From Pseudomonadota bacterium (GTDB lineage Bacteria; Pseudomonadota; Alphaproteobacteria; GCA-2746255): a DNA stretch of 64,000 nt. Within the stretch, counting starts at the first letter, position 1, and each line of letters starts with the position of its first letter. Of the stretch, positions 7,557-54,209 are shown in pieces. The notes under the pieces are model-generated. The model ran no database searches, was not told the origin of the DNA, and worked only from the letters and a program-made list of their open reading frames with translations. The stretch is taken from positions 392,368 through 456,367 of the forward strand of contig JBFMHN010000002.1 in NCBI GenBank assembly GCA_040752895.1, read 5' to 3'. Position numbers and translations under genes: made by a program.

Positions 7557-7826
7557 ATGTCGATTACGGCCGAGAAGAAGACAATCCTTATAAAAGAATA
7601 TGCCTTGAAAGAAGGCGACACCGGCTCGCCCGAGGTGCAGGTCGCGATTCTGAGCGAGCGAATCGGCAACCTGACCGAGCATCTCAAGGGCCATGGCAAA
7701 GACGTTCATTCCCGCCGCGGCCTGCTGAAGATGGTCAGCCAGAGGCGCCGGCTTCTTGACTATCTTCAGAAGACGGATGCGAGCAGGTACGAAAATATCC
7801 TTAAGCGGCTTGGTTTGAGGAAGTAA
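7557..7826 (+). CDS. rpsO: 30S ribosomal protein S15
   Basis: S15 binds 16S rRNA early in assembly of the small-subunit platform. The 89-residue length is exactly usual, with [17 protein letters not shown] and the [20 protein letters not shown] stretch that contacts RNA. It follows truB by 11 bases and precedes pnp, the classical rpsO-pnp pair. Confidence 0.98.
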
Positions 7827-7843
7827 CAAGACCGATGCGCCTT

Positions 7844-7909
7844 GGCGGGGATGGGCTCGCCTGGCGGAGGTGTGTGTCAACGCGGACGAGCCGCGGCGTA
7901 GGGCGCCGC
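7844..7909 (+). promoter_or_regulatory. Hairpins in the rpsO-pnp spacer
   Basis: Two stems are visible in the 112-base spacer: GGCGGG (7844-7849) with CTCGCC (7856-7861), one G-U pair, and GCGGCG (7893-7898) with CGCCGC (7904-7909), loop TAGGG. Neither has a T run. In enterobacteria the pnp leader forms an RNase III-cleaved structure through which PNPase autoregulates; a similar role here is inference from position. Confidence 0.4.
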
Positions 7910-7938
7910 AGGTTGTTGGATGGAAGGAAGAAAGAAGA

Positions 7939-10068
7939 ATGTTTGATATTACGCGTAAGGAAATTCTGTGGGGAAAGCGGAAGCTTGTTCTGGAATCGGG
8001 AAGAATGGCAAGGCAGGCGGACGGCGCGGTGCTCGCGAGTTACGGCGAGACGTCGGTCCTGTGCACCGTCGTCGGTCAGAAAACGGCGAAAGAAGGCATT
8101 GATTTTCTCCCCCTTACGGTAAACTATTTCGAAAGAACCTACGCCGCCGGAAAAATCCCTGGCGGCTTCTTCAAGCGGGAAGGCCGGCCCAGCGAGAAAG
8201 AAACCCTGGTCTCCCGTTTGATTGATCGGCCGATCCGGCCGCTTTTCCCGGACAATTTTCATAACGAAGTGCAAGTGATCTGCACGGTGTTGAGTCACGA
8301 CCTCGAGAACGATCCGGACATCGTGTCGATGGTTGGCGCCTCGGCCGCGCTTGCGATCTCCGGTCTGCCTTTCCGCGGGCCCATCGCGGGTGCCCGGGTT
8401 GGCTATATCGACGGGCGCCACGTCCTCAACCCCCAGCTCGACGAAATGGTGAACTCGACTTTGAACCTCGTCGTGGCCGGCACCAGGGACGGCGTGCTGA
8501 TGGTCGAATCGGAGGCCAGCGAGCTTTCCGAGGACGTCATGCTGGAGGCCGTCATGTTCGGCCATCGGGAATTCCAGGCGGTCATCGAGGCGATCTCGGA
8601 AATGGCGAAGGCCTGCGGCAAGAAGCCATGGGAGATAGCAAAGCCCGCCCAGTCGGTCGAAGCGGTGGCGAAGGCCGTGAGCGGGAAGGCGACGAAGGGC
8701 TTGCAGGAGGCCTACAAGATCACGGAGAAACAGGCCCGCGTCGAGCGCCTGGCCGATGTCCGCCGGGGCCTCGTTGAAACGCTTGCGACAGAGGAACTCG
8801 GCGAGACCGCGATCCTCAATGCGACGAAGAAAGTCGAAAAGGCCATCGTCCGCCACGCGATTCTCGAGACCGGGCGCCGGATAGACGGGCGGGATACTCG
8901 GACGATTCGTCCCATCTTCGGCGAAGTCGGCGTGCTGGCTCGCGCGCATGGCAGCGCCCTTTTCACCCGGGGCGAAACCCAGGCCCTGGTCGTCGCCACC
9001 CTTGGCACCGGCCAGGACGAGCAGTTCGTGGACGCCCTTGACGGCGAATACCACGAACATTTCATGCTGCATTACAATTTCCCTCCCTATTCCGTCGGCG
9101 AAGCCGGCCGCGTCGGCTTCACCGGCCGTCGCGAGATCGGCCACGGCAAGCTTGCCTGGCGGGCGCTGCGGGCGCTGCTGCCGAAAAAGGAGGATTTTCC
9201 CTACACGATGCGGGTCGTCTCCGAGATCACCGAATCGAACGGCTCTTCCTCGATGGCGACGGTTTGCGGAGCCTCGCTTGCGTTGATGGACGCCGGCGTT
9301 CCACTGACGCGGCCGATCGCCGGTATCGCCATGGGGCTTATCAAGGAAGACTCCGGCGTGGTTGTTCTCTCCGATATTCTCGGCGACGAGGACCATTTGG
9401 GCGATATGGATTTCAAGGTGGCCGGCACCGAGCAGGGCATTACGGCGCTGCAGATGGACATCAAGATCACCGGCATCACGGAAGAGATCATGCAGACGGC
9501 GCTCGCCCAAGCCCGCGAGGGGCGGCTGCATATCTTAAACGAGATGACGAAGGCCCTGTCCGGTTCGCGCGATGCCGTAAGCAGCCACGCGCCGCGCATC
9601 ACGGTGCTCACGATTCCGAAAGACAAAATTCGCGAAGTCATCGGCACGGGCGGCAAGGTCATTCGCGAGATCTGCGAAACGACGGGCGCCAAGATTGACA
9701 TTGAAGACGACGGCACCATCAAAGTCGCCGCGGTGAACAACGAATCGGCCACGGCGGCGATCGAATGGATCCGGGGCATCGTAGCCGAGCCGGAAATCGG
9801 CCACATCTACACCGGCAAGGTCGTAAAAACCGTCGACTTCGGCGCCTTCGTGAATTTCCTGGGCGCGCGCGACGGGCTTGTCCACATCAGCGAACTGGCA
9901 CCGCGTCGCGTCGGCAAGGTGACGGACGTCGTCAAGGAAGGCGACGCGGTGAAGGTGAAGGTGCTGGCGATCGATGACCGGGGCAAGGTGAAGCTCAGCA
10001 TGCGGGCGGTCGATCAGGAAACCGGCGAAGACATCCAGAAGGCGGAGGAAACGGCTTCCGCCGGCTAG
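7939..10068 (+). CDS. pnp: Polyribonucleotide nucleotidyltransferase (PNPase)
   Basis: PNPase degrades RNA 3' to 5' by phosphorolysis and is part of the degradosome. The 709-residue length is normal. Two RNase PH-like domains are separated by a helical linker (about 240-310); a KH domain lies near residues 555-600 ([17 protein letters not shown]) and an S1 domain near 620-690 ([17 protein letters not shown]). ATG 7939 follows a strong GGAAGGAAG site; the frame is open upstream to 7870 but that part falls in the leader. Last gene of the translation block. Confidence 0.97.
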
Positions 10069-10086
10069 GCCAGCCCCCCGCCAGCC

Positions 10087-10150
10087 CCCGAAAATCATGG
10101 AAAACCACTTGATTTTATTTGTGAATCTACAGCTGGTTTTCGGGTTTTCC
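10087..10150. repeat. Nested inverted repeats after pnp
   Basis: CCCGAAAA (10087-10094) is the exact complement of TTTTCGGG (10137-10144), and GGAAAACC (10099-10106) is the exact complement of GGTTTTCC (10143-10150). GGTTTTC also occurs at 10135-10141. The pairings compete with one another, and TTTT follows the first stem. The element may be the pnp terminator with a long loop or an RNA switch; the sequence alone does not decide. Confidence 0.4.
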
Positions 10151-39975: not shown

Positions 39976-40302
39976 ATGGGCGAAGAAGGCATGGGCGAAG
40001 AACGGTTTTGCCGAAACCCGGCGGTCAGCGTGACGGCGGTCGAGGCCGACCTTTTCCTCGTCGAGCCCATAGGCCAGGACGTTTACTATTTGAACGCCAT
40101 CGCCGGCGGCATCTGGCAGGTCCTGGAAGCGCCGGCCATGCGGGAAGAGGTCCTCCGGCTTTATGCGGCGGCCTTTCCCGATGAGGACCCGACCCTTCTG
40201 GCGCGCGAAGTGGGTGCCACCTTCGACGACATGGCCCGGCTCGGGCTTGTGATCAGCGCTCCTGAAACGCTTGAGCGGAAGTCCGAAACATCCGATCCGT
40301 AA
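39976..40302 (+). CDS. PqqD-like protein (RiPP recognition element fold)
   Basis: A 108-residue protein with the PqqD pattern: RNPAVSVTAVEADLFLVEP, YYLNAIAGGIWQVLEAP and EEVLRLYAAAFP, then DDMARLGLVI. PqqD-type domains bind leader peptides of modified peptides, and stand-alone copies also occur in polysaccharide/exosortase loci. No PqqA or radical-SAM gene is nearby. ATG 39976 has GAAGGG upstream; ATG 39991 begins a 15-base tandem repeat of the first codons. The 3' end overlaps the convergent hlyD-like gene by 50 bases. Confidence 0.72.
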   Translation: MGEEGMGEERFCRNPAVSVTAVEADLFLVEPIGQDVYYLNAIAGGIWQVLEAPAMREEVLRLYAAAFPDEDPTLLAREVGATFDDMARLGLVISAPETLERKSETSDP

Positions 40303-41596
40303 GGTAGGAAAGAATGGACTTCTCGCCGATCCGCAGATCGACGTCCACTTCCATGCCCGGCTGCACCGGCTGTTCGTCGGGCCGTTTGCCGAGATGGGCC
40401 CTCTCCGTGCGGATGACGACGGTAAAGTAGGACTCGCCGCCCGCGGCCGGCGTCACGGCGTTCGCCGCGACCTGCTCGACCCGGCCGTCGAGGCTTCCGA
40501 AGCGAAGGAAGTCGTATGTGCGGAACTTGACCCGCGCCGCCTGCCCAAGGGCGACATAACCTATGTCGCGATTCTGGACGCGCGCCTCGACGATAAGGCT
40601 GTCCGTCGTCGGCACGATGTTCATCAGGGGATCGTTCCCGCCGATTGTCTGACCGACGCTCGTGACCCGCAGGTTCTGGACGATGCCGGCGGCCGGCGCC
40701 CGGATCACGAGCGCCTCGCGCTGACTCTTTCGCTGGGCCAGCGCGCCTTCGGTCGCGTCACGCTCTTTCTGGGCGGCGGCCAGGTGGTCGAGAGCCTCGG
40801 CGTGGAATTTCTGTCCAACCGCTTTTTGGCGTTCCTTCGCCTCGGCGAAGGCGGCGATCAATCTTTCCCGGGCTTCGGCCAGCGTGCCTTCGGATTCGGA
40901 AAGCTGGCGCTGGATCGAAAGGTGGCGAAGTTCCGGGAAATAGCCTTTTTCCACCAATAGGTTGACGGAACGTTCCTGCTTTTTCAGGAGGGCGAGGCTG
41001 TTTTGCAGTTCCTCGATCCTGAGGGTCAACGCCTCGACGTCGCTGGCGCGCTGCTCGACCACGCTCGCCGCGATTTTTTCATCGCTGGCGAGCGTGGTCG
41101 AGCGGGATTCGAAGAGCCGGGTCTGCAATTGTTCGAGATCGGGCCGCGCCGCGTGCAGCGCGGCCGGAAACTCGGGCCGCGATCGGGTCGCTTCCGCCTC
41201 GAGGCGGGCGCTCCTGGCCGCCAGGCCGTACCACGCGTCCTGCAGGCGGGTGATTTCCTCCTCCAAAAGGCTGGCGTCGAGTTCGACCAGCGCCTGCCCG
41301 GCGTCCACCCTGTCGCCCTCTTGCACGTGAACGGCGACGACCCTTCCCCCTTCCGGATGGTTGATGATCTTCACGCGGCCGAAGGGGCGCACGACGCCTT
41401 GGGCGGTGGCGACCTGTTCGACCGTGCCAAGACCCGCCCAGATAAGGACGGCGGCCAGGAAAAGCGCGATGGTGAAGATAAGGAGGCCGGCCAGAGGTGC
41501 CGGTTCCGCGTCCAGGCCGACCGCCTTGGGATGAAAGTCGGCATCGGTCTGCGTTACCTTCCGGAACAGCGAGAGAATTTGGCGCGCCCGCGTCAT
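40253..41596 (-). CDS. HlyD-type membrane fusion protein of type I secretion
   Basis: A 447-residue periplasmic adaptor with one N-terminal membrane helix (LLIFTIALFLAAVLIWAGL), a lipoyl half-motif (IINHPEGGRVVAVHVQEGD), a long alpha-helical coiled coil (about 115-300) and a returning lipoyl/beta-barrel part (IRAPAAGIVQNL, VQPGMEVDVDLRIGEKSIL). It bridges the ABC exporter to a TolC-type channel, which is not in the window. Start overlaps the ABC gene stop by 4 bases. Confidence 0.9.
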   Translation of the reverse strand: MTRARQILSLFRKVTQTDADFHPKAVGLDAEPAPLAGLLIFTIALFLAAVLIWAGLGTVEQVATAQGVVRPFGRVKIINHPEGGRVVAVHVQEGDRVDAGQALVELDASLLEEEITRLQDAWYGLAARSARLEAEATRSRPEFPAALHAARPDLEQLQTRLFESRSTTLASDEKIAASVVEQRASDVEALTLRIEELQNSLALLKKQERSVNLLVEKGYFPELRHLSIQRQLSESEGTLAEARERLIAAFAEAKERQKAVGQKFHAEALDHLAAAQKERDATEGALAQRKSQREALVIRAPAAGIVQNLRVTSVGQTIGGNDPLMNIVPTTDSLIVEARVQNRDIGYVALGQAARVKFRTYDFLRFGSLDGRVEQVAANAVTPAAGGESYFTVVIRTERAHLGKRPDEQPVQPGMEVDVDLRIGEKSILSYLTDRMFRTSAQAFQER

Positions 41597-43764
41597 GTGC
41601 CTTCTCCTCCCACAAGGTCGGCCAAGCGCTCGCGCACCACGTCCAGCATTTCCGACGCCGGCCCCTCGCGTTCGATCCGTCCGTCCACCAGGAGGACGAC
41701 GCGGTCCGCGATGGCAGCCGGCGTCAGCCGGTTCGTGAGCAGAAGGATGGTATGCCCCTTCGCCTTCCGGCGCAGCTTGTGAAGCAGCGCCGCCTCGGCC
41801 GCCGGGTCGATGGCGTTCGTCGTCTCGTCCAGGATCAGCACCTTCGGGTTGCGGGCCAGCGCCCTAGCGAGGCAGAGCAACTGCCGCTGGCCGGCGGAAA
41901 GCCCGCGCCCGCCTTCGCCGAGAAGCGTGTCGTAACCTTTCGGCAGGCGCTGGATGAAGGCGTGGGCGCCGACGAATTTCGCAGCCTCCACGGCACGCGC
42001 CGCCGGCATGCCGTGAAGGCCGAAGAGAAGGTTCTCGCGCACGGTGCCGGAAAAAATCTGGCTTTCCTGCGGCCCGGCGATCACCTGCCGGCGCAGGGCG
42101 GGGGCGGAGAAATGGGCGGCGTCCGCCGCGTCCAGAAGAATCCGTCCCGCGGTCGGCGCGTAAAGGCCTTGCACCAGCTTCGCCAGCGTGCTTTTCCCCG
42201 AACCGGCCGGGCCGACGATCGCAACGACCGTCTCCTTTGGGATTTCGAGAGTAACGCCGCGCAACACCTCCGGCAGTTCCGGCGCGTAGCGAAAGGAGAC
42301 GTTCTCGAAACGAAGGGCACCGGTAATGGGCGGCAAGACCGTCGCCATGCCCGGCGCGCCTTCGGCGGGGGCGGCGAAGAGGGCGTTAAGTTCGTGAAAG
42401 GCGGTCCGCGTCTCCTGCAGTTGATTCCAGGCGGAAACGGCTTGGCGGACGGGTGCGATCGCGCGGCCGGCCAGAAGGTTCGCGGCGACCAGCGCGCCGA
42501 TGCTGAGTTCGCCGGCGATGACCAAACGGGCGCCGACGAAGATGATCGCAAGCGCGGTCAGTTGCTGTAACAGAGCGGCGAGGGCATTTACGAGCGCGGC
42601 CAGATGGTCGGCGCGGAAGCCGGCGCCGGCGGCTTCCGCTACCCGTTCCTCCCACCGGCGTTCGACCTCGGGCTCCAGGCTCAAGGCCTTCACGGTCAAC
42701 GCGTTCCGAAGCGTCTCGAGATAGGCCGACGACCGCGCGGCGAGCGCCCGGAAGCGTTCCTCGAAGAGTCCTTTCTGCGCTCGGTAGAGCGCTAGGGAAA
42801 CGAGCGCGAAGAGAAAAAGCGCGGCAAGCGCGATGACACCGAGCAGCGGGCTGAGGAAGAAAAGGACGATCAGGAAAAGAAGAACGAAAAACTGATCGAT
42901 CAGGAGGACCGGCACGGACCCGGTAAAGAATTCACGGACCGTGTCGAGCCGGCGAAGGCGCTCGTTCATCAGGCCGGCGGGGGCCGCCTCCAGGTCCCGG
43001 TAAGGGAGGTGGAGCACGCGGTGCATCGTTTCGCCGCCGAGGGTTGCGTCAATCCGCGCGCCGGTATGGCTCACGACGTAGCCCCGGATGCCGCGTAGCA
43101 CGGCGTCGAAGGCATAAAGGCTCAGCATGCCGAGGGCGAGCACGTTGAGGGTGTCGAGGGCGGCCTGGGCGATCACCTTGTTGTAGACCGTCATGACGAA
43201 AAGGGGCGTCGCCAGCGCGAAGAGGTTGATAACGAGAGAGGCGATCAGAATCTTGACAAGGACGCGCTGGAAACGCCCCGCGAAAAGGCCGCGCAGGCCT
43301 TCCCCGGCGGTGACGGCCGGCCGCCGGCGGAAAAGCAGGACGTCCTGTTCGGCGCCAAGCCGGCCCGCCTTCTCCTCCCGGCTTTTTCCGCTTGCCGGAT
43401 CGAACAGGCGGAGATGCTCGCCCTTGCGTTCAAGCGCGAGCAGGGTTGGCTTGCCGTCGCCGTCGAGGAGCAGGAAGGGCGGACGGACGTTCCCCGGCTT
43501 CGCGCGCCGCCGCTTTGCCCGGAAGCCGAGCCGTCTTAAGGCGCGGACGAAATCCTTCGCCGCCGCCCCTTCTTTCGCAGGCGGCAGCAGGGCATAAAGG
43601 TCAGCGGCATCCAGCGGCCTTCCGGCCTCCGCCATCAGCACGGAGAGGATGGCGCGAAAAGGGTCTCCCGATGGGGATGGCGACGGCGCCGCCGGGGATG
43701 GGGGAACTGCCTTTTTTTCAGCGTCGCCGTTTTTCGGCAGGTGTGCTCCGGTAACCTGCAGCAC
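41593..43764 (-). CDS. Type I secretion ABC transporter with C39-like domain
   Basis: A 723-residue fused permease-ATPase. Residues about 35-150 form a C39-peptidase-like domain without the catalytic Cys, a substrate-docking type as in HlyB. The membrane domain starts near 165. The ATPase has Walker A GPAGSGKST, an LSAGQ signature, Walker B LILDETTNAIDP, and Asn678 in LLTNRLTPAAI where the switch His is normally found. Hydrolysis may therefore be slow or rely on the Walker B Glu. GTG 43764 is the first codon of the open frame; no Shine-Dalgarno is evident. The secreted substrate is not identified here. Confidence 0.86.
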   Translation of the reverse strand: MLQVTGAHLPKNGDAEKKAVPPSPAAPSPSPSGDPFRAILSVLMAEAGRPLDAADLYALLPPAKEGAAAKDFVRALRRLGFRAKRRRAKPGNVRPPFLLLDGDGKPTLLALERKGEHLRLFDPASGKSREEKAGRLGAEQDVLLFRRRPAVTAGEGLRGLFAGRFQRVLVKILIASLVINLFALATPLFVMTVYNKVIAQAALDTLNVLALGMLSLYAFDAVLRGIRGYVVSHTGARIDATLGGETMHRVLHLPYRDLEAAPAGLMNERLRRLDTVREFFTGSVPVLLIDQFFVLLFLIVLFFLSPLLGVIALAALFLFALVSLALYRAQKGLFEERFRALAARSSAYLETLRNALTVKALSLEPEVERRWEERVAEAAGAGFRADHLAALVNALAALLQQLTALAIIFVGARLVIAGELSIGALVAANLLAGRAIAPVRQAVSAWNQLQETRTAFHELNALFAAPAEGAPGMATVLPPITGALRFENVSFRYAPELPEVLRGVTLEIPKETVVAIVGPAGSGKSTLAKLVQGLYAPTAGRILLDAADAAHFSAPALRRQVIAGPQESQIFSGTVRENLLFGLHGMPAARAVEAAKFVGAHAFIQRLPKGYDTLLGEGGRGLSAGQRQLLCLARALARNPKVLILDETTNAIDPAAEAALLHKLRRKAKGHTILLLTNRLTPAAIADRVVLLVDGRIEREGPASEMLDVVRERLADLVGGEGT

Positions 43765-44048: not shown

Positions 44049-45194
44049 ATGACTTACGGTAAGCGCTTCGCAGACGTTAGGGTGTGGCGGGCGAACCTTC
44101 GGCGGCTCGTATGCGCCGCCTTTACCGGTGCTTTTTTCGCAAGCTTTCCTGCCACCGGGCCTTCGGGTGCGGCCGATGCCACGCAGCCGGAACTATCGCC
44201 GGCCGAGCGGAAGGCGCTTCTCGGCGCGCTCTCCGGCACGGAGGAAGGCCTCGCCGATCTCGACCGGCTTCTCACCCAAGGCAAGGCCGGCTCCAAGGAA
44301 GTGGAGGCGCGCGCCGAGAACCTTCTTCAGCAATTGAAAGCGGGCGGCTTCATCCAGGACGCCACGGCGGCGCTTACGGTCGCCGATCGGATCATCCAGG
44401 CTTCCATTTCCCATTCGGGGGGTGGCGCGAAGATCATCCAATTCGATCCTTCCAGCAATTTCCTTCCGTCGAAAGACGTCATCGCGCTCGATTTTGGGCC
44501 GTCCGATAAGAAGGTCAGCCCCGGCTTCGAGCGCATCACCACCCTCGACAAGCGCATCGAGCCGGCCGAAAAGGACGGCCTTCAGGCGATTCGCCGCCCC
44601 GGCCAGGACACCCTCCAGTCGGGTGGCATGATCGGCATCGGCAATTTGAAGGTCGAACTCACGAAAAGCGGCCGCTGGCGGATCATCCTGATGACGGAAG
44701 CCTTGGGCGAAGGCGGTGCCGCGGCACCCTTCGGGGAGTTCATCATGGTGAACGGGGTCAATATCCCGATCGCCCAGGCCCTGCCGGAGGATTGGGTTCG
44801 GGTTGCGCGGCTTAAGACCGGGGGTGAGTCGGCGGCCGAAATCTTCAATCCATCACAGGCCGGCCCCACTGCCCGGTTTGCCGGCGGCATCATTGTTCTT
44901 GAGGTGGACGTGCCGGGCAGCGAATTGAAAATCGGATTTTCTTCCGGAAAAACATACCTGACCGGGGCGATTTTCGAGCCGACGGACAAGCCTAGCGTTC
45001 TCAACCTGCCACCGGAGGCCAAGGACGCCGTTTTTTCAGACAAGCGGCGCCTGCAAGTGGAAGCGAATGTCAGCTCGAAAGTTGCCGAATTGGTCGCCGA
45101 ACTTGTGACCAAGGCCAAGGACAGCGAAAAAAAGAAATCGCTCGATCTGCCGGAGCCTGTCCTCAAGAATGAGCGGATCGCAAGCCCCAGCTAA
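44049..45194 (+). CDS. Secreted protein of unknown function in the polysaccharide locus
   Basis: A 381-residue protein with a signal-like segment (LRRLVCAAFTGAFFASFPATG). The mature N-terminal part is helical (LSPAERKALLGALSGTEEGL, DLDRLLTQGKAG, EVEARAENLLQQLK); the middle has a beta-rich region (GNLKVELTKSGRWRIILMT, GEFIMVNGVNIPIAQALP, GGIIVLEVDVPGSELKIGF); the end is charged and helical. I do not recognise the family. ATG 44049 is used since it precedes the signal segment closely; the frame opens earlier at 44010. The last 26 bases overlap the possible start of the barrel gene. Confidence 0.7.
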   Translation: MTYGKRFADVRVWRANLRRLVCAAFTGAFFASFPATGPSGAADATQPELSPAERKALLGALSGTEEGLADLDRLLTQGKAGSKEVEARAENLLQQLKAGGFIQDATAALTVADRIIQASISHSGGGAKIIQFDPSSNFLPSKDVIALDFGPSDKKVSPGFERITTLDKRIEPAEKDGLQAIRRPGQDTLQSGGMIGIGNLKVELTKSGRWRIILMTEALGEGGAAAPFGEFIMVNGVNIPIAQALPEDWVRVARLKTGGESAAEIFNPSQAGPTARFAGGIIVLEVDVPGSELKIGFSSGKTYLTGAIFEPTDKPSVLNLPPEAKDAVFSDKRRLQVEANVSSKVAELVAELVTKAKDSEKKKSLDLPEPVLKNERIASPS

Positions 45195-46542
45195 GCCGAA
45201 AGTCCATCCTTTTCGTTCTTCCCCATGCGGCGTGGCGGGCCATACCGGAGAGAGCAAGCCTTTGTGGACCTGCCGACTGCGGCGTTTTGGTCTTTTGGCC
45301 CTGTTTGGTGTGGCGGGGACCGGGGCCGCCCTTGCCCAGACGGCGAAGGAGGATTCGGTCACCACCCGCGTCCGTCCGGACTACGACGCCTTAGGGATCG
45401 AGTCGCGGGATTTCTTTCCCGCCACCGGGACGGCGGCTGACCCGGCGGTGAGCAGTTTTATCCTCTTCCCGAAAATAGATATCGAGACGGAGTACGATGA
45501 CAACACCTTCCGCACCGAAACGGACAAACGTGCCGACACGGTCTTTCGCGTGAAGCCGGGTATTCGCGCCGAATCGGACTGGGATAACCACTTGCTTGCC
45601 TTTCGCGCGAACGGCGAGCTCGGCCGCTTCGCCGAGAACGGAAGCGAGGATTACAACGACTATAATTTCGGCGTGAACGGCCAGCTGGATTTGACGGAGG
45701 AAATGTCGGTGGGCCTGGGGAGCGGTTTCGCGCGGGCGCACCAGGACCGCGGCTCGCCGGACGACACCGGCCTCGGCATTCCGCTGACGAAATTTTTCCA
45801 GACGTCTTACGACGCCAACGTCGTTTTCACGGGCGAGCCTCTTTCCTTTCGCCTGGACGGGGTGGCGGACGTCTTCAATTTCCAGGACGCCGGCCCCATC
45901 AACAACGACGACCAGGACCGCAACAAATACAAGACGACCTTCCGCGTCGGCTATGAAATCCTCGAAGGCACGACGCTCTTCGTGCAGCCAGGCTACAACG
46001 TCGTTCGCTATGACGCGGCGGTGGACGACGAGGGCCTTCGCCGGGATTCACAGGGCTATGAAGTCCTCGCCGGGTTCACCTGGGATCTCTCCGGCGTCAC
46101 CTTCCTCGAACTCGGCGCGGGCTATCTCCGTCAGAGCTTCGACGACCCGCTGCTGGGCACGGTGAGAGGCCCCTCCTTCAGTGGCGATCTGGTCTGGAAC
46201 GCGACGGATCTCATGACGCTGACCGGCAGACTGTCACGGACGGTCAAGGAAACGACGCTCCGCAACGCCTCCGGCATCCTGGAAACCAATCTCGAATTCG
46301 TGGTGGATTACGACCCGCTGGAAAACCTGATCTTCACTCTGAGCGGGGCGTTCCGCAACCAGGACTTCAAGGGGATAGACCGCAGCGAGGATGGGGTTCG
46401 CTTCCGGCTCGGCATGAAATATCTTATGAATCCTAACGTGGTGTGGGAATTGCGCTACGAGAACGAGGATTTGGATTCAAACCTGGCTGGCGAAAGCTAT
46501 AAGAACAACCAGTGGCTTGGGCGGCTGACCTTCCGTCTGTAA
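45169..46542 (+). CDS. Outer-membrane beta-barrel protein
   Basis: A protein of up to 457 residues with a signal peptide (LRRFGLLALFGVAGTGAALAQ) and alternating-pattern strands such as HLLAFRANGELGRFAENG, FGVNGQLDLTEEMSVGLG, VDYDPLENLIFTLSGAF, ending in LGRLTFRL with the C-terminal aromatic/hydrophobic pattern of barrels. The SSFILFPKIDIETEYDDNTFR start of the barrel is typical of VpsM-like exopolysaccharide barrels. TTG 45262, with GGAGAG upstream, would give a shorter and more normal signal peptide than ATG 45169. Likely the outer-membrane channel of the locus. Confidence 0.85.
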   Translation: MSGSQAPAKPKVHPFRSSPCGVAGHTGESKPLWTCRLRRFGLLALFGVAGTGAALAQTAKEDSVTTRVRPDYDALGIESRDFFPATGTAADPAVSSFILFPKIDIETEYDDNTFRTETDKRADTVFRVKPGIRAESDWDNHLLAFRANGELGRFAENGSEDYNDYNFGVNGQLDLTEEMSVGLGSGFARAHQDRGSPDDTGLGIPLTKFFQTSYDANVVFTGEPLSFRLDGVADVFNFQDAGPINNDDQDRNKYKTTFRVGYEILEGTTLFVQPGYNVVRYDAAVDDEGLRRDSQGYEVLAGFTWDLSGVTFLELGAGYLRQSFDDPLLGTVRGPSFSGDLVWNATDLMTLTGRLSRTVKETTLRNASGILETNLEFVVDYDPLENLIFTLSGAFRNQDFKGIDRSEDGVRFRLGMKYLMNPNVVWELRYENEDLDSNLAGESYKNNQWLGRLTFRL

Positions 46543-46559: not shown

Positions 46560-47204
46560 ATGACGAAGCGGGAAAAAGAAAAAAGCGCGTATTTTCGCCG
46601 CCGCCGCGGCGCGGAGCGTTGCCCGCGTCGAAGGATTTTCCCGGCGGCGGGCGTCGCCCTTGCGGGTATCTTCTTCTTTCTTTTGTTCGCGGCCGGGTCC
46701 TTGGCCCAGAACCCGGGAGAGACCAAAGCTTCGGATTCGGTCGGGGTGGAGTACTACCTTGGGGCGGGGGACAAGCTGAAGGTCACGGTCTTCGGGCAGC
46801 CCGACATTTCTGGCGAGTTCGACATCGACGGCGCGGGCTATATCTCCCTGCCGCTTCTGGGGCAGGTCAAGGCGGCCGATCACACCGCCCGCGACCTGCA
46901 AACGCAGATCGAGCGCGAGCTCGACGCCAAGTTCATCATCGACCCCAAGGTCAGCATCGAGGTCCGCAATTTCCGGCCCTTCTTCATCCTGGGCCAGGTC
47001 ACCAAGCCGGGAAGCTACCCTTACCAGAGCGGCATCGATATTCGCCAGGCGATCGCCATCGGCGGCGGCTTCACCCGGCGGGCGCAAACGGACGTCGTGA
47101 CGCTGATCCGGCGGACGGGGGCAGGGAAAACCCGCTACGATGCGACCCTCGACGTACCGGTCCTGCCGGGAGATACGATCGAGGTCGAGCGCCGCCTCTT
47201 CTAG
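46560..47204 (+). CDS. Short polysaccharide export protein (Wza/OPX family)
   Basis: A 214-residue periplasmic polysaccharide export protein. After a hydrophobic signal segment (AGVALAGIFFFLLFAAGSLA) come the export domain (YYLGAGDKLKVTVFGQPDIS, ISLPLLGQVKAADHTARDL) and one SLBB domain (FFILGQVTKPGSYPYQSGID, AIAIGGGFTRRAQTD). It lacks a lipobox Cys and the C-terminal outer-membrane helix of Escherichia coli Wza (379 residues), so it belongs to the short class that needs a separate barrel. GGGGAG precedes ATG 46560. Confidence 0.9.
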   Translation: MTKREKEKSAYFRRRRGAERCPRRRIFPAAGVALAGIFFFLLFAAGSLAQNPGETKASDSVGVEYYLGAGDKLKVTVFGQPDISGEFDIDGAGYISLPLLGQVKAADHTARDLQTQIERELDAKFIIDPKVSIEVRNFRPFFILGQVTKPGSYPYQSGIDIRQAIAIGGGFTRRAQTDVVTLIRRTGAGKTRYDATLDVPVLPGDTIEVERRLF

Positions 47205-47489: not shown

Positions 47490-49742
47490 TTGAATCGTAT
47501 GGCCGACATTCGTCAATTGCGGGGCACGCCGCCGGCTTCGCCCTCCGCGCCGACGTTCGGCGAAGCCGAGGGGGACGAGCTCGACCTCGTCTACCTCTTG
47601 GGCGTGCTGCGCCGGCGCAAATACCTAATCGCCGGCATCGTGTTCCTGATCACCAGCTTCACGGCACTTTTCGTCAGCCAGATCACGCCGCTTTACCGGG
47701 CGGAGGCGTTGCTGGTTCTCGAAGAGAACCAAAGCAACGTCTTGAACATTGACGCCGTCACCAGGGGAATGCGCACGGACTATTACACGAACGAGACGGA
47801 GGCCGCCGTCATCGGCTCGCGCGCCCTTGCCGTCAAGGCGGTGAAGCGGCTCAACCTTGTCGAAGATCCGATGTTCAACCCTTTCCTGGTGCCGCCGCAA
47901 CCAAGCCTTTGGGCCGCGATCGGGGTCTGGCTGTTCGGCAAGGCCGAGGAAAAGGACTGGACAAGCGGCATGACACCCGAAGCGGTCGAGAACTACACGC
48001 TTGAGCTTGTGACGGATTACTACCTTGCCGACCTTTACGTCCAGCCCTCGCTCACCTCGCGGATCATGTCGGTCGGCTATTCGTCCACGGATCCTGCCAC
48101 CGCGGCCAGGCTCGCGAACGCCGCGGCTGAAATCTACATCCTGGACCAGCTCGAGACGCGCGGCGCCGCCACCGTCCGGGCGACGGACTGGCTGAACGAG
48201 CGCGTGGAGCAACTGCGCCTTCGCGTCATCGAATCGGAGCGTCGCTTCGATGTGTTTCGCCGCGAGTCCGGCATCGTCGAGGTCGGCAGCACGAACGTCT
48301 ACCAGCAGCAACTTGCCGAACTCAGCACACAATTGATCGCATCGCGCGGGCAGCGGGCCGAGGCCGAGGCGCGCGAGCAGCAAATCCGGCAATTAATGGC
48401 TTCTTCCGGCAACATCGAATCCGCCGCTGCCGTTATCGATTCGCCGCTCATCCAGAAATTGCGCGAGCAGGAAGCGGAACTTCTCCGCAAGGTTTCCGAG
48501 CTTAAGACCCAGTTCCGGGAAGGGCATCCAAAGCTTCTGTTGGCCCAGAACGAGATCGGCGACCTTCGCGAGAAAATCGCGAACGAGGTGAACAAGATCG
48601 CCCGCAACATCGGGTATGAACTTGAAATCGCCCGCGTGCGCGAGGCGAATTTGCAGACGGAAGTCAGGAATCTGCAACACCGCATCGAGGAGCAGGCCGA
48701 GGCGGAAGCGAACCTGAATTCGCTGGAGAGCGAAATCAAGGCGAACAAACAGCTCTATGAGACGGTTCTTGCCCGCTTCAAGGAAACGAAGGTGCAGGAC
48801 GAGGATCTGATTCAGGCGAACGCGCGGGTGATTTCGCCCGCCGTCGAACCCAGCCGGCCTTACTACCCGAAGAAACGGCTGATGGTGATGGCCGCCCTTT
48901 TTGCCTCCCTTGTCGCCGGCATCGCGCTTGCCTTCATGCTGGAATATCTCGACTCCGGCTTCCGCACGGCCGAGCAACTGGAAAACGTGACGGGTCAACC
49001 GGTGTTGGGGATTTTCCCCTATCTTCGGGACGGCAAGGTGCCGTATCTCGAGGCGGTCGACCGTCCGAACAGCATCTTCGGCGAGGCGGTCCGCCGCCTC
49101 CGCACCTCGCTTGCGCTTTCCGACGTTCACGGGAGGCCGAAAACGCTGATGGTCACCTCTTCCGTGCCGGGCGAAGGGAAGACATCGCTTGCCGTCGCCC
49201 TCGCCGCGTCGGCGGCGAAGTCGGGGCAGAAATGCGTTCTTGTCGATTGCGACCTTCGGCACCCGAGCGTCCATCGCGTCATGGAACTTGCGAACGATCG
49301 GGGCTTGAGTACCCATCTCACCGGCCAAGCCAGCCTCGGCGACGTGCTGGAGGTCGACTTGCGTTCCGGCTTGCGCGTGATTCCGGCGGGGCCCATCGTG
49401 CCGCACCCGGCCGATCTTCTGGGCTTGCAGGAGATGCGCGGCCTGATCCACCGGCTGGAGGAACTTTTTGATTTTGTGGTGCTGGATGCGCCGCCGCTGC
49501 TTGCCGTGTCTGACGCGCTGGTGCTGACGCGCGGCGTGAACAAGGTTATTTTCGTAGTGCGTTGGGCGAAGACGGACCGCAACACGGTCAAGGCGGCTTT
49601 AAGGCAATTGCTTGAAGCCGGCGGCGAGGTGGCCGGCTTGGTCTTGAGCCTCGTCGATATCCGCAAGGGCGCCCCTTACGGATTAGGCTCTTCCGGCCGC
49701 GCCTATTACGAGGGCTACGACCGGTATTACAAGGAAATTTGA
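47490..49742 (+). CDS. Wzc-type polysaccharide co-polymerase/BY-kinase
   Basis: A 750-residue inner-membrane protein controlling chain length and export. It has two membrane helices (about 50 and 470) flanking a Wzz domain and long coiled coils (about 230-440), the YYPKKRLMVMAALFASLVAG segment, then the bacterial tyrosine kinase: Walker A SSVPGEGKTSLA (about 557-568), Walker A' VLVDCDLRHP and Walker B FVVLDAPP. The Tyr-rich tail RAYYEGYDRYYKEI is the autophosphorylation cluster. TTG 47490 is spaced well from GGGGAG; ATG 47499 is an alternative. The opposing Ser/Thr-type phosphatase gene downstream may act on the locus. Confidence 0.93.
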   Translation: MNRMADIRQLRGTPPASPSAPTFGEAEGDELDLVYLLGVLRRRKYLIAGIVFLITSFTALFVSQITPLYRAEALLVLEENQSNVLNIDAVTRGMRTDYYTNETEAAVIGSRALAVKAVKRLNLVEDPMFNPFLVPPQPSLWAAIGVWLFGKAEEKDWTSGMTPEAVENYTLELVTDYYLADLYVQPSLTSRIMSVGYSSTDPATAARLANAAAEIYILDQLETRGAATVRATDWLNERVEQLRLRVIESERRFDVFRRESGIVEVGSTNVYQQQLAELSTQLIASRGQRAEAEAREQQIRQLMASSGNIESAAAVIDSPLIQKLREQEAELLRKVSELKTQFREGHPKLLLAQNEIGDLREKIANEVNKIARNIGYELEIARVREANLQTEVRNLQHRIEEQAEAEANLNSLESEIKANKQLYETVLARFKETKVQDEDLIQANARVISPAVEPSRPYYPKKRLMVMAALFASLVAGIALAFMLEYLDSGFRTAEQLENVTGQPVLGIFPYLRDGKVPYLEAVDRPNSIFGEAVRRLRTSLALSDVHGRPKTLMVTSSVPGEGKTSLAVALAASAAKSGQKCVLVDCDLRHPSVHRVMELANDRGLSTHLTGQASLGDVLEVDLRSGLRVIPAGPIVPHPADLLGLQEMRGLIHRLEELFDFVVLDAPPLLAVSDALVLTRGVNKVIFVVRWAKTDRNTVKAALRQLLEAGGEVAGLVLSLVDIRKGAPYGLGSSGRAYYEGYDRYYKEI

Positions 49743-49760: not shown

Positions 49761-50447
49761 GTGCGGCGAACCCCCGGAAGCCTTGCCCTGTTTGTCCTGC
49801 CGCTTCTGCTTGCCTTGCTTGCGGTTGGCCTCGCCGTTCCCCGGCTCGCCGCCGCCTTCCTTCTGCTTCCCGCCCACGGCATCGTCGAGGCGGCGGGAAA
49901 GGGCGAGCCGGTTTCCGACGCCGCCCTTTCGCGGGCACTCACTGCGAAGACGGCCGCCTTTCGGTGGGTGAGCGACCCCAAGACGCAATCGGACATCGGC
50001 ACCCTTCATCTGCTCGCTGCGCACAGGGCCGGCACCGGAAGCCCGGAGGGGATCCGTTTGCTTGAGGAAAGCGTGACCGCGATTCGCGCAAGCCTCGGTC
50101 TTTCGCCGGCCCAGCCCTATGCCTGGCTCCAGCTCTTTCAGGCCCGCCTCGCGCTTGAGGGGCCCACCGCCGCGGCCAGCCCGCTTTTCGTTCAGGCCAT
50201 CCGCACGGCGCCTACCGAATCCCACATCGTTCTTCCCCGCCTCGAGGTTGGCCTCGCCGTCTGGACGTTTCTGGACGCCGAGGCCGTGCGCCACCTCAAA
50301 GGGCAGGTGGCCCTGGCGGCGCGTTACCATCTGTGGCCGCTCACCGAGATGACGAAGAAGCGGCATGCGCTAAAGCTGGTCCGCGAGGCGCTGGAGGAAG
50401 ATCCCGAATTGCTCAACCAATTCGATGTCATCTATCGCCGGCTTTAG
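49761..50447 (+). CDS. Membrane-anchored protein of unknown function
   Basis: A 228-residue protein with one N-terminal helix (LALFVLPLLLALLAVGLAVP) and an alpha-helical, TPR-like remainder: ALSRALTAKTAAFRWVSDP, LLEESVTAIRASLGLSPAQP, YAWLQLFQARLALEGP, HALKLVREALEEDPELLNQ. The last part reads like a repeat-protein end. GTG 49761 is the start; it follows the kinase gene by 18 bases. It may help assembly of the synthase complex; that is guesswork from context. Its stop overlaps the convergent ligase gene stop. Confidence 0.65.
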   Translation: MRRTPGSLALFVLPLLLALLAVGLAVPRLAAAFLLLPAHGIVEAAGKGEPVSDAALSRALTAKTAAFRWVSDPKTQSDIGTLHLLAAHRAGTGSPEGIRLLEESVTAIRASLGLSPAQPYAWLQLFQARLALEGPTAAASPLFVQAIRTAPTESHIVLPRLEVGLAVWTFLDAEAVRHLKGQVALAARYHLWPLTEMTKKRHALKLVREALEEDPELLNQFDVIYRRL

Positions 50448-51841
50448 GAAGGCGAAACCGCTTCCTCGCGCGCCGACCAGGACTGGGCCGAGGCAACGCC
50501 CAGCAACCCGAGATAGGTGATGGCGACAGCCGGAATCTGGAGGCTGAAATCCGCCAAGGCGTGCACACCAACCAACGCCGTGACGGCAACGCCCGCGGCC
50601 GGGAAAATCGCGTTCCGTCGGCGGCGCAAGGCGCCCAGGAAACAGAGAAGCGTTACGTAGCCGGCCAGAAAGAGGAGAAGCGCGAAGGCCGGCAGGCCGC
50701 CCCCCATTGCGAGTTCCAAGTAGGTGTTGTGGGCATGGTCGATTGTATCGACGTAAAACCGAAAGCCCTCGTCCCGGTAAAGACGGAAACTTTCCTTGAA
50801 GGTGTCGAGGCCAAAGCCGAGGAAGGGTCGGTCCCCGATGCCCTCCAGCGTGCGTTCGTAAATCGCCAGCCGATCGGTCTTCGCGGCGTCGCCCAGCCGG
50901 TTGAAGACTTCCTTTCCGCTGACGGCAAGGATGGCGGCGAGGAGGCTTAAGGCCAACATGCCCCCCACCGCCATGGGCAGGACTTCAATCGAGCGCCGCT
51001 GCTCGCGCAGCCGCATGCCGGCGACGACGGCGAAGGTGCCGATCCCGACCGCGGCGCTCAGGAATCCGCCGCGGGAATGGCTGAGCAGGAGGGCGGTAAA
51101 AAGAATTCCGCAGGCAACGATCAGGAAATAGAAGCGGAAGCCGCACGCGTCGAAAAATCCCAAAGTGTCCTCGGCCGCGATCGGGCTGTGACGCCGGATG
51201 CGCCGGATTTCAGCGAGCAGAAGGGCGAGACAGGCGAGCAAGGTAACGCCGGCGTAGGTCGCGTAGTGGTTACGATTGACGAAGGTGCTGGTTAGCGAAT
51301 CCTGATACGCCCATTTCGGGTACCAGAGAATTTTCTGGCTGCCGCCGAGATGTGCGACGAGGCCATAGATCGCATAGGCAAGCCCGGCCATTGCGACGAT
51401 CCAGAAGATGTTCCTGGCGCGCTTCTCGTTGCGGCCGAGCTGGAAGGCAAGCCAGAAAACGCCGCCATAGGTGAGCAGCCGCAGCACGGCTTGCCTGCTC
51501 GCCTCCGGGTTCAGGCTGATGGCGCCGGCAAGCGGCGCATTCAGCGCCCCCGAAGCCTCCCGCCAAAGCGGGTGGTGCCAGGCTTCCGGCATCCCCCCGC
51601 TTGCCTGCGCCAGGAACCAGAAAACCAGGACGGCGAAGGGAACGACGATCAGGCGGGAACGCCGCCATTCGATCGGGGCGAGCGCAGCGTTCCGGAAGGC
51701 CGCTACTGCCCAAAGCACGACGAGAAACCCGACGCCAAGGCCAAGCAGCGCCCATGCCCACGGCCGGTTGCCGCCGAGCGGCAACGGCGAAAGCGCAATC
51801 AGTGTGCCGAGCGACCAGAAAAGGAAGGTGCCCGCGTTCAA
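50444..51841 (-). CDS. O-antigen ligase/polymerase family protein
   Basis: A 465-residue membrane protein with about eleven hydrophobic helices and a large periplasmic loop. The Wzy_C/WaaL hallmark is present: STFVNRNHYATYAGVTLLAC, ALLLSHSRGGFLSAAVGIG, RLAIYERTLEGIGDRPFLGFG and DHAHNTYLELAMGGGLPAF. It either polymerises repeat units or ligates the glycan; a second polymerase-like gene lies at 56.5 kb. The start is TTG within TTGA, overlapping the upstream gene stop by 4 bases. Confidence 0.87.
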   Translation of the reverse strand: MNAGTFLFWSLGTLIALSPLPLGGNRPWAWALLGLGVGFLVVLWAVAAFRNAALAPIEWRRSRLIVVPFAVLVFWFLAQASGGMPEAWHHPLWREASGALNAPLAGAISLNPEASRQAVLRLLTYGGVFWLAFQLGRNEKRARNIFWIVAMAGLAYAIYGLVAHLGGSQKILWYPKWAYQDSLTSTFVNRNHYATYAGVTLLACLALLLAEIRRIRRHSPIAAEDTLGFFDACGFRFYFLIVACGILFTALLLSHSRGGFLSAAVGIGTFAVVAGMRLREQRRSIEVLPMAVGGMLALSLLAAILAVSGKEVFNRLGDAAKTDRLAIYERTLEGIGDRPFLGFGLDTFKESFRLYRDEGFRFYVDTIDHAHNTYLELAMGGGLPAFALLLFLAGYVTLLCFLGALRRRRNAIFPAAGVAVTALVGVHALADFSLQIPAVAITYLGLLGVASAQSWSAREEAVSPS

Positions 51842-53283
51842 TAGGCGTTTTCCTGCATGAAGGGTACGAGAAAGGTCAGAAAAAGAATCTTGATGTCGAA
51901 AAAAAGCGACCAGTTGTCCACGTAGTAAAGGTCGTACTGCACCCGGCGCCGCATTTTTTCGAAGGTGTCCGTCTCTCCGCGCAAGCCGTTTACTTGCGCC
52001 CAGCCCGTGATGCCCGGTTTCATGCGGTGCCTGCCGAGATAATCGTCGATGATGGCGGCGTATTGCTGGTTATGGACGACGGCGTGCGGCCGCGGGCCGA
52101 CCAGCGACATGCGGCGCTGCAACACGTTGATCAGCTGCGGCAGTTCGTCGAGACTGGTGCGACGCAGGAAGGCGCCGACCCGCGTTATCCGGGGGTCCCC
52201 CCGCCGCGCCTGGGCAACGTCGCCTTCGGCCTTCGCCGCCGACGCGCTTTCCTTCGTGTGGCACATCGTCCGGAATTTGTAGACGTGGATCGGGTTGTTG
52301 TAGAAGCCGTACCGCCGCTGGCTGAAGATGACAGGGCCGGGGCTGTCCAGCTTGATGACGGCTGCGATCAGGAGCATGGCCGGCGAAAGCAGGAGCAGGA
52401 GCAAGCTTCCGAGAACCAGGTCCTCGACGGTTTTGGTGACGAGGTCCCAGCCGCTCAAGGGCCGTTCCTGAACCGTCAGCATTGGCCACCCGGCCACCCG
52501 GTCGATCTTGTGAATGGGGATGGGGGCGTTCACGATTTCCGGGCAGAGGTAGATACTCAAGGGAAGCGTGCGCAGCTTCTTCAGGACGCCCAGCAAATTT
52601 TCACCCTCCGACCAGGGAATGGCGACGATGACTTCGTCCACCTTGTGCGTCTGGCTATAGGCCGGCAAATCCGCGACCGTGCCGAGCACCGGAAATTCGC
52701 CCACCTTCTCGGGCAAGGACGCCCTCGCGTCGTCGAAGAAGCCGACCAGCCGTATGCCCGACGCCGCGCCCTGCATCAAGTGTCTGGCCAGCGCTTCGCC
52801 AAGCGGCCCGGCGCCGACGACGGCGGCGTTCAGGGTCAAATCGCCCGTTCTTCGCCAGCGGCGGGTTTGCAGAAGGGCGAGAAAACGTAAAAAAAGAAAA
52901 CCGACGAAGCTGAAGGAAAACCAAAGCGCCGCCCAGATGCGCGAATAGTCCTCCGACGACTTCGTGAAGTAGGCGATAAAAACCAGCGTCGCGAGAACGA
53001 CGATCCAGGTAAACGCCAGGCGGCCGAATTGAGGAATCGGCACGGTAATATCGGAGAAGTTATAAAGCCGCGCGAAATGAAAGTAGTTGATCGTCAGCAG
53101 AACGCCGGCGGCAAGGGCGGCCTGATAGTTTGTCGGCAAGTCGAAATCCGCTTCGCGGAGCCAGTAGGCGAGAATGCCGGTCGCGGCGACGACGCAGGCA
53201 TCTCCCACCCGCAGCGCGCCCATCAGGAACGTCTGCAGGTCGGTCGAAATCGTCCTCGAACGCAATGGCGGGTTCGCGTGCAC
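51838..53283 (-). CDS. Undecaprenyl-phosphate sugar phosphotransferase (WcaJ type)
   Basis: The initiating transferase that places the first sugar-1-phosphate on undecaprenyl phosphate. About 481 residues: N-terminal membrane helices, a CoA-binding-like domain (AAVVGAGPLGEALARHLM, VDEVIVAIPW), a membrane helix at SLLLLLLSPAMLLIAAVI and the C-terminal catalytic domain with DSPGPVIFSQRRYGFYNNP, KFRTM, RRTSLDELPQLINVL, MSLVGPRPHAV and PGITGWAQVNGLRGET. The open frame begins at 53574; GTG 53283 is a reasonable start, ATG 53223 a shorter one. No good Shine-Dalgarno is seen for either. Confidence 0.9.
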   Translation of the reverse strand: MHANPPLRSRTISTDLQTFLMGALRVGDACVVAATGILAYWLREADFDLPTNYQAALAAGVLLTINYFHFARLYNFSDITVPIPQFGRLAFTWIVVLATLVFIAYFTKSSEDYSRIWAALWFSFSFVGFLFLRFLALLQTRRWRRTGDLTLNAAVVGAGPLGEALARHLMQGAASGIRLVGFFDDARASLPEKVGEFPVLGTVADLPAYSQTHKVDEVIVAIPWSEGENLLGVLKKLRTLPLSIYLCPEIVNAPIPIHKIDRVAGWPMLTVQERPLSGWDLVTKTVEDLVLGSLLLLLLSPAMLLIAAVIKLDSPGPVIFSQRRYGFYNNPIHVYKFRTMCHTKESASAAKAEGDVAQARRGDPRITRVGAFLRRTSLDELPQLINVLQRRMSLVGPRPHAVVHNQQYAAIIDDYLGRHRMKPGITGWAQVNGLRGETDTFEKMRRRVQYDLYYVDNWSLFFDIKILFLTFLVPFMQENAY

Positions 53284-53438
53284 AAAGATAAGGATACGTA
53301 AGGTATCGCCGCAATCAAGCGAAAGGCGCCGCCGCGCTGGCGGCGAGAACGGGCTTGCAGGAACCCCGTGCTTGCCGATCCCCGTCCGGAAGCGCCTTTT
53401 CCCTGGCGATTTCGTCGCGGAAGGGACATATCTTTGGC

Positions 53439-54209
53439 ATGCGCCAGGATTTTCCCAGCCTTGCCCGCCGGGCGGCCGCGTCGGAGAAAGAAACCCGTCC
53501 GCCCGAGGGGACCGTCGTTTACGCCATCGGCGACATCCACGGCCGGGCGGATTTGCTTGGGGAATTGCAGGCAAAAATCCGGACGGATGCCGGCGCGCGC
53601 GAGGGGCCGCGCAAGGTCATCGTCTATCTCGGCGACTATGTGGATCGCGGCCTGCAATCGCGCGAGGTGCTCGACCGTCTGCTTGATGAGACGCTTCCCG
53701 GCTTTCTCTCCGTTCCCCTCAAGGGCAACCACGAAGAGGCGCTGCTGAAATTTCTCGACGACATCGACATCGCTCCCGGCTGGTTCTCGTACGGCGGGGA
53801 TACGACCCTTTACAGCTATGGCGTAGAGGTGCCGCGTCCGCCGCTCACGGCGGAGAAACTATTGGGCACCCAGGCCGAATTCCTGCGCAAGCTGCCGAAC
53901 CGCCATCTCGCCTTCCTGCGCGGCCTTCGCCTTTACCACGAGGAAGGGGACTATTATTTCGCCCACGCCGGCGCCCGGCCGGGGCGCGCGCTGGGCGACC
54001 AGGCGGAAGAGGACCTGCTCTGGATCCGGGACGAATTCCTGTTCTCGGCCTATGACTTCGGGAAAATCATCGTGCACGGCCATACGATCGCGCCGGACCC
54101 GGAGTTCCAGCCAAACCGGATCGGCATCGACACCGGCGCCTTCGCCAGCGGACGGCTCACCTGCCTCGTCCTCGATGGCGCCGAACGGCAGATCTTGCAA
54201 ACCGGGTAG
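53439..54209 (+). CDS. PPP-family metallophosphoesterase
   Basis: A 256-residue phosphatase with the calcineurin-like signature set: AIGDIHGRADLLGEL, VYLGDYVDRGLQSREVLD, LKGNHEEALLKFL and the late VHGHTIAPDPE. These supply the two-metal ligands. The family contains Ser/Thr protein phosphatases; similar genes recur in alphaproteobacterial exopolysaccharide loci. It could reverse a phosphorylation in the assembly machine. ATG 53439 is taken; GGAAGGG lies 13 bases upstream. Confidence 0.85.
   Translation: MRQDFPSLARRAAASEKETRPPEGTVVYAIGDIHGRADLLGELQAKIRTDAGAREGPRKVIVYLGDYVDRGLQSREVLDRLLDETLPGFLSVPLKGNHEEALLKFLDDIDIAPGWFSYGGDTTLYSYGVEVPRPPLTAEKLLGTQAEFLRKLPNRHLAFLRGLRLYHEEGDYYFAHAGARPGRALGDQAEEDLLWIRDEFLFSAYDFGKIIVHGHTIAPDPEFQPNRIGIDTGAFASGRLTCLVLDGAERQILQTG

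Follow-up and report, generated by a model that had tools for sequence, protein, structure and literature searches.

How does an exopolysaccharide cross the outer membrane when the OPX protein of its locus is unusually short, and does a secreted protein encoded just upstream take part? A locus on contig JBFMHN010000002.1 (assembly GCA_040752895.1) from a Pseudomonadota bacterium of the class Alphaproteobacteria raises both questions. We analysed a stretch of 64,000 nucleotides of this contig ("the window"), and coordinates are positions in it. The initial annotation had proposed that the short OPX protein and a neighboring barrel form a split export channel, and that the secreted protein, which we call X44, may be a third part of the same machine. 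The relevant features are:

40253 to 41596, minus strand: HlyD-type adaptor that goes with the ABC transporter of the next gene (named by reading the sequence)
41593 to 43764, minus strand: type I secretion ABC transporter, LssB-like and divergent (TIGR03375, E = 2.4e-155, below the cut-off)
44049 to 45194, plus strand: X44, secreted, family unassigned, proposed glycan-handling accessory (from gene linkage and predicted fold)
44199 to 44417, plus strand: N-terminal helical region of X44, protein residues 51-123 (predicted model)
44466 to 44987, plus strand: core of X44, a malectin/CBM-like beta-sandwich, protein residues 140-313 (predicted model and fold comparison)
45012 to 45191, plus strand: C-terminal helix and polar tail of X44, ending in ...ASPS (alignment and tail counts)
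45169 to 46542, plus strand: outer-membrane beta-barrel, PF10082 (BBP2_2; Pfam E = 1.8e-83)
46560 to 47204, plus strand: short OPX protein of the D1+D2 type, with Poly_export and one SLBB domain (Pfam)
47490 to 49742, plus strand: Wzc-like co-polymerase with a BY-kinase domain (Pfam/NCBIfam)
49761 to 50447, plus strand: weakly VpsP-like protein (NF038257, E = 1.2e-4, below the cut-off)
50444 to 51841, minus strand: membrane protein of the Wzy_C polymerase/ligase family (PF04932, E = 2.9e-20)
51838 to 53574, minus strand: WcaJ-type undecaprenyl-phosphate glucose phosphotransferase (TIGR03023, 492 bits, cut-off 410.75)

As judged from its genes, this is a vps-like Wzx/Wzy exopolysaccharide (EPS) locus. 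Like vps loci, it has a VpsP-like gene. Our overall reading, to which we give a probability of about 0.7, is that the polymer of a Wzx/Wzy pathway would leave the cell through a composite translocon and that X44 acts there. The support for this reading consists of domain content, gene order, the lack of any Wza_C match over the cut-off, the linkage of three genes, and clustering in the barrel tree.

A short OPX protein and a separate barrel

The open reading frame at 46560-47204 (plus strand) translates to an OPX protein of 214 residues. Pfam places Poly_export (PF02563, E = 2.8e-21) at residues 63-135 and a single SLBB domain (PF10531, E = 1.4e-10) at residues 141-189. The protein stops 25 residues past the SLBB match, which leaves no space for a Wza_C helix. 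Its sole cysteine, residue 21, precedes the hydrophobic segment, which rules out a lipobox; by eye, the Sec-type signal finishes near ...AAGSLAQ. Translation, Pfam and the position of the cysteine thus confirm the original description of a 214-residue protein with one SLBB domain and neither a C-terminal helix nor a lipobox. The nearest solved structure by sequence is 9n9a, a polysaccharide export protein of 186 residues (E = 7.6e-18). An alignment of the OPX proteins that are linked to X44 shows a conserved C-terminus (...PGD......RR.F).

The gene directly 5' of the OPX gene had been described as encoding an outer-membrane beta-barrel. Indeed, it matches PF10082 with E = 1.8e-83 over residues 95-450, and it also resembles an EpsL-like family in NCBIfam (E = 3e-12, below the cut-off). 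The stop of X44 overlaps the first ATG of the barrel gene by 26 bases; an alternative start for the barrel is possible at a downstream TTG, just 5' of the signal peptide.

Pairs of this kind are known. Schwabe et al. (2022; PMC9601211) defined D1D2 OPX proteins that are coupled to a barrel; they report such a barrel for 453 of 1,230 OPX proteins of at most 280 residues, name VpsN/VpsM among the couples, and show interaction or mutual stabilisation of OPX and barrel for EpsX/EpsY. Saidi et al. (2022) use the names class 3 OPX proteins and Wzp porins, and report truncated OPX proteins as the commonest OPX class (PMC9603273). The Myxococcus precedent that the initial annotation invoked, a short OPX protein with a separate barrel, is correct according to both papers. 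EpsY/EpsX (Myxococcus xanthus), VpsN/VpsM (Vibrio cholerae) and WzaX/WzpX share with the present locus an OPX protein of D1+D2 only, a neighboring gene for an outer-membrane barrel, and a Wzx/Wzy-type setting with PCP and PGT. Unlike the myxobacterial OPX proteins, nearly all of which are predicted lipoproteins (PMC9601211), the present OPX protein is not predicted to be one.

A composite translocon is recognised by an OPX protein of at most 280 amino acids that has the PES motif PF02563 and lacks a C-terminal outer-membrane alpha-helix, a barrel gene within five genes, polysaccharide biosynthesis genes nearby, and a wide barrel of about 18 strands. Here, a 214-residue protein carries PF02563 and has no such helix, the barrel gene is adjacent, and genes for a PCP, a WcaJ-type PGT and a Wzy_C protein are close by (Pfam/NCBIfam). 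As to the strands, a count of alternating hydrophobicity across 28 aligned barrels gave 27 peaks, which is not usable as a strand number because the signal and periplasmic parts are counted in. A structure model of the barrel, built from a 2-row alignment, had a mean pLDDT of 29 and was discarded.

The amphipathic Wza_C helix that marks class 1 Wza proteins is absent from this OPX protein, and no Wza_C match in the genome is over the cut-off (best 12.2 bits vs. a cut-off of 25.8). Exactly two proteins of the genome match PF02563; their open frames span 233 and 240 amino acids. Both are short OPX proteins, so the full-length Wza that would have spoken against a split channel was not found anywhere in the genome. 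The other OPX protein also lies beside its own barrel, in a second, paralogous locus (L009; G000:C2:236000-252000; L numbers are our handles for loci) with genes for barrel, OPX, PCP, VpsP-like protein, Wzy and PGT. In L009, a secreted protein of 170 amino acids, helical by eye, takes the place of X44 before the barrel.

The split-channel proposal stands up well: the pair has the sequence features and the gene order of a composite OPX/beta-barrel translocon, and it very probably is one. This part of the locus is a further member of the type published in 2022 (PMC9601211, PMC9603273), and because of those publications it is not new in kind.

X44 and one lineage of barrels

In contrast to EpsY/EpsX-type loci, the present locus has an additional conserved gene, X44, before the barrel. 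X44 has no match up to E = 0.1 in Pfam or NCBIfam. The open reading frame is real, since two congeneric genomes have relatives at 56-60% identity and further families have more distant ones. Named relatives put the group in Alphaproteobacteria, and the closest named record is the metagenome-assembled Alphaproteobacteria bacterium 277c_12. A search with the single sequence found X44 in 6 of 59 genomes, including its own; with a six-row profile, 34 of 386 alphaproteobacterial genomes had a match. In a phylum-wide sample, 7 of 397 genomes had X44, and all seven were labelled "same class."

We fetched the surroundings of X44 in the 33 genomes besides its own. The linkage of X44, barrel and OPX genes, which the initial annotation had proposed to look for in other genomes, was present in half of the X44-bearing genomes: in 17 of 34 (own included), X44 is on the same strand as a barrel gene and directly upstream of it, and in all 17 an OPX gene follows the barrel. 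From the end of the X44 match to the start of the barrel match there are 245-574 bases in 14 of these loci and 902 in one; in the two loci where X44 was matched in two pieces, the second piece lies 332 and 339 bases from the barrel match. In the remaining 17 genomes, X44 is not seen beside a barrel. These are mixed: some matches are on short contigs, some proteins have PEP-CTERM-like ends, some are fusions of about 800 amino acids in EPS clusters, and a few are elsewhere. The profile match at L073 (genome G156) is weak, as tblastn for X44 finds nothing there.

To see the linkage from the side of the pore, we used 40 barrel loci without X44; 28 of these have an OPX match inside the fetched stretch. 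These barrels were hand-picked for diversity from the PF10082 matches listed (in at least 117 of 386 genomes). Together with the 17 X44-linked barrels and the second barrel of the genome itself (L009), they make up a tree of 58 barrels, which is not a random sample. The X44 label changes 3 times on this tree vs. a mean of 14.9 for shuffled labels, and none of 500 shuffles was as low; the shuffles measure clustering only, and kinship of the genomes adds to it. All 17 X44-linked barrels fall inside one set of 20 (SH-aLRT 98). The other three members (L102, L113 and L118) have no adjacent X44, and two of the three are long branches. At the third, L102, a gene further upstream encodes a secreted protein whose C-terminal end is like that of X44. 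A tree of OPX proteins, confined to the 45 loci with an OPX match at E = 1e-8, gave 4 label changes vs. 13.9 for shuffled labels (0 of 500 as low). These sequence comparisons support a tie between X44 and one barrel lineage.

We consider X44 an accessory and not a core part: it is missing from most barrel/OPX loci, the second locus of this genome among them. The idea that X44 is a third part of the export machine is supported, for an accessory, by the linkage in 17 of 34 genomes and by the clustering in the barrel tree. That X44 is a glycan-handling accessory of the same machine has, in our judgement, even odds. A gene for X44 that travels with this pore lineage is previously undescribed. Among the openly licensed titles and abstracts listed on malectin with polysaccharide export and on OPX proteins with carbohydrate-binding modules, none describes such a third component; nor is one described in the texts of PMC9601211 and PMC9603273, so far as these were looked up for it.

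Two published systems resemble the arrangement in part. In Sphingomonas LM7, the promonan locus (prmA-Q) has the same order of PGT, small gene, barrel, OPX, PCP and kinase, and deletion of the barrel gene prmC or of the SLBB/OPX gene prmD abolishes EPS (PMC11340318). The small gene just before that barrel, prmB, encodes 64 amino acids and is dispensable (PMC11340318), a point against our reading of X44. X44 has 381 amino acids; we liken the two by position. PelB/PelC of Pseudomonas likewise place a periplasmic accessory protein beneath an outer-membrane barrel, and the likeness is one of arrangement alone: they belong to another pathway, and PelC is reported to be a lipoprotein ring.

Predicted fold and relatives of X44

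We modelled mature X44 from a 5-row alignment; the mean pLDDT was 58.7, with core strands at about 80. With this model, Foldseek gave a single match below E = 1e-3, to FERONIA, which has malectin-like domains. We also ran VIA-align over residues 96-270. According to the tool, models that match nothing clearly reach a typical best Z of 7-8; the best scores of X44 were higher. The top match (Z = 12.7) was a late accessory domain of beta-glucuronidase 2 from Bacteroides uniformis (chain residues 716-886). Next came the N-terminal part of YXIM (Z = 11.6), FERONIA/ANXUR (10-10.8), human malectin (CBM57; 10.0) and CBM35 (about 8.8); this ranking is among the families in the structure list that was compared. 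By sequence, the X44 profile reached just four PDB chains, with E = 0.14 or worse and on helical stretches.

Compared with malectin and CBM35-type domains, the predicted core of X44 is a like beta-sandwich (Z about 8-12), with about 7-15% identity and with extra helical N- and C-terminal parts. With moderate confidence, we place the modelled core among the malectin/CBM35-like sugar-binding folds. Since Pfam yields nothing for it even at E = 0.1, we do not file it as a member of the malectin family. A sugar-binding role can reasonably be inferred from the model, with the proviso that a like fold alone is no demonstration of function.

The relatives of X44 bring in two other explanations. First, the X44 domain forms the N-terminal part of the EPS-cluster proteins of about 800 amino acids (profile-profile comparison, 99.7%, E = 2.6e-27), whose C-terminal part is GH123-like below threshold (Pfam E = 0.066; PDB E = 0.12). 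Such proteins occur at L065, L067, L068, L070 and L071, and two of this group, when run against Pfam, gave nothing over the cut-off. X44 could accordingly be what is left of an enzyme that modifies the polymer, or the partner of such an enzyme, with the CBM-like domain positioning an EPS hydrolase. The shared domain speaks for this, whereas the GH123 similarity is below the cut-off and no hydrolase appeared among the proteins of the window that were run against Pfam, so we consider it quite improbable.

Second, a FecR domain (PF04773) is joined to the X44-type domain in four loci: it is N-terminal in L012 and L053 and inside the protein in L059 and L063. X44 might then be a periplasmic glycan sensor that informs envelope regulators, with the fused FecR as the signalling part. 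Proteins at L072 and L102, which lack the malectin-like core but end at the C-terminus in the manner of X44, would fit with this as well. Pfam finds no FecR match in X44 at 44049-45194, however, and FecR domains occur in surface proteins too. We rate a sensor as improbable, on a par with the enzyme partner.

Type I secretion genes near the pore

The strongest competitor to a role in export comes from the neighboring genes. A divergent pair of type I ABC transporter and HlyD genes is found no more than 4 kb from the barrel in 11 of the 17 X44-barrel loci, including the present one; of the 40 barrel loci that lack X44, 0 had it in the upstream stretch examined (up to 4 kb). Also, one subfamily of X44-domain proteins (L057) has a PEP-CTERM sorting end (PF07589, at the cut-off). 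In Vibrio vulnificus, cabABC adjoins the brp EPS operon (PMC4584020). By analogy with CabA, X44 might be a lectin of the matrix or surface that leaves the cell via the barrel or by another route; it would be outside the export machine and, together with a matrix protein secreted by the type I system, would keep the completed polymer at the cell surface. The predicted sugar-binding type of fold would also suit a lectin. Against this, X44 has a Sec signal and not the layout of a type I substrate, 6 of the 17 X44-barrel loci have no type I genes in the fetched stretch, and the association with a barrel clade points to the exit pore. We regard a lectin as unlikely, although it is the best of the rivals.

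We also considered X44 as a substrate of the type I system itself and rejected this since X44 carries a Sec signal. Two short frames with RTX repeats on other contigs (G000:C6:90756-91370 and G000:C7:20066-20452) are candidate type I substrates.

A proposed route for the polymer

In the reading that we prefer, with X44 at the composite translocon, the short OPX proteins would assemble into a two-tier periplasmic ring (D1+D2). The ring would dock below on the Wzc-like co-polymerase and above on the PF10082 barrel, and the outer membrane would be crossed by the barrel and not by an OPX helix. X44, exported by Sec, would act in the periplasm at the mouth of the conduit, where its malectin/CBM-like core may touch the emerging polymer. 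Its C-terminal helix and tail may tie it to the translocon, and X44 would assist in guiding, retaining or gating the chain. The hand-over of polymer at the outer membrane, from OPX ring to barrel, is still described mostly by models. X44 is conserved, is inherited together with the pore, and has a fold of a sugar-binding type in its predicted structure, which makes it a concrete candidate for a part that touches the polymer.

Polar tails and plasmid relatives

Upstream of PF10082 barrels, the encoded secreted proteins frequently carry a polar SP(N/S/T/A) tail (X44 and proteins at L081, L086, L094 and L102). Many X44 proteins of barrel loci finish in SP(N/S/A), and a few of the tail-bearing proteins are unrelated to X44. 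Counting all open reading frames, the tail is found in 19 of 386 upstream of barrels vs. 15 of 2087 elsewhere, with a motif that was picked after viewing the sequences and with crude gene calling. Most of the 19 are X44 relatives, and at least 2 look like chance frames. With a home-made heuristic for secretion, the counts are 15 of 43 upstream vs. 2 of 234 elsewhere, and 3 of 27 upstream once X44 relatives are removed. A docking function for the tail is a lead only. The more specific idea, that X44 is a glycan-binding third subunit that docks on the pore by its Ser-Pro-(Asn/Ser) tail, and that the tail is a tag for exchangeable accessories of the translocon, seems doubtful to us.

Finally, X44 itself (P0002) had no match when compared with plasmids, and the X44 protein from L051 had weak matches in two Plesiomonas plasmids. 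One of these relatives (L135) is a "hypothetical" protein of about 780 amino acids with weak similarity to the X44 domain (Plesiomonas shigelloides plasmid NZ_CP062197.1, CDS 7761-10100), and its gene sits in a plasmid-borne EPS cluster of a gammaproteobacterium.
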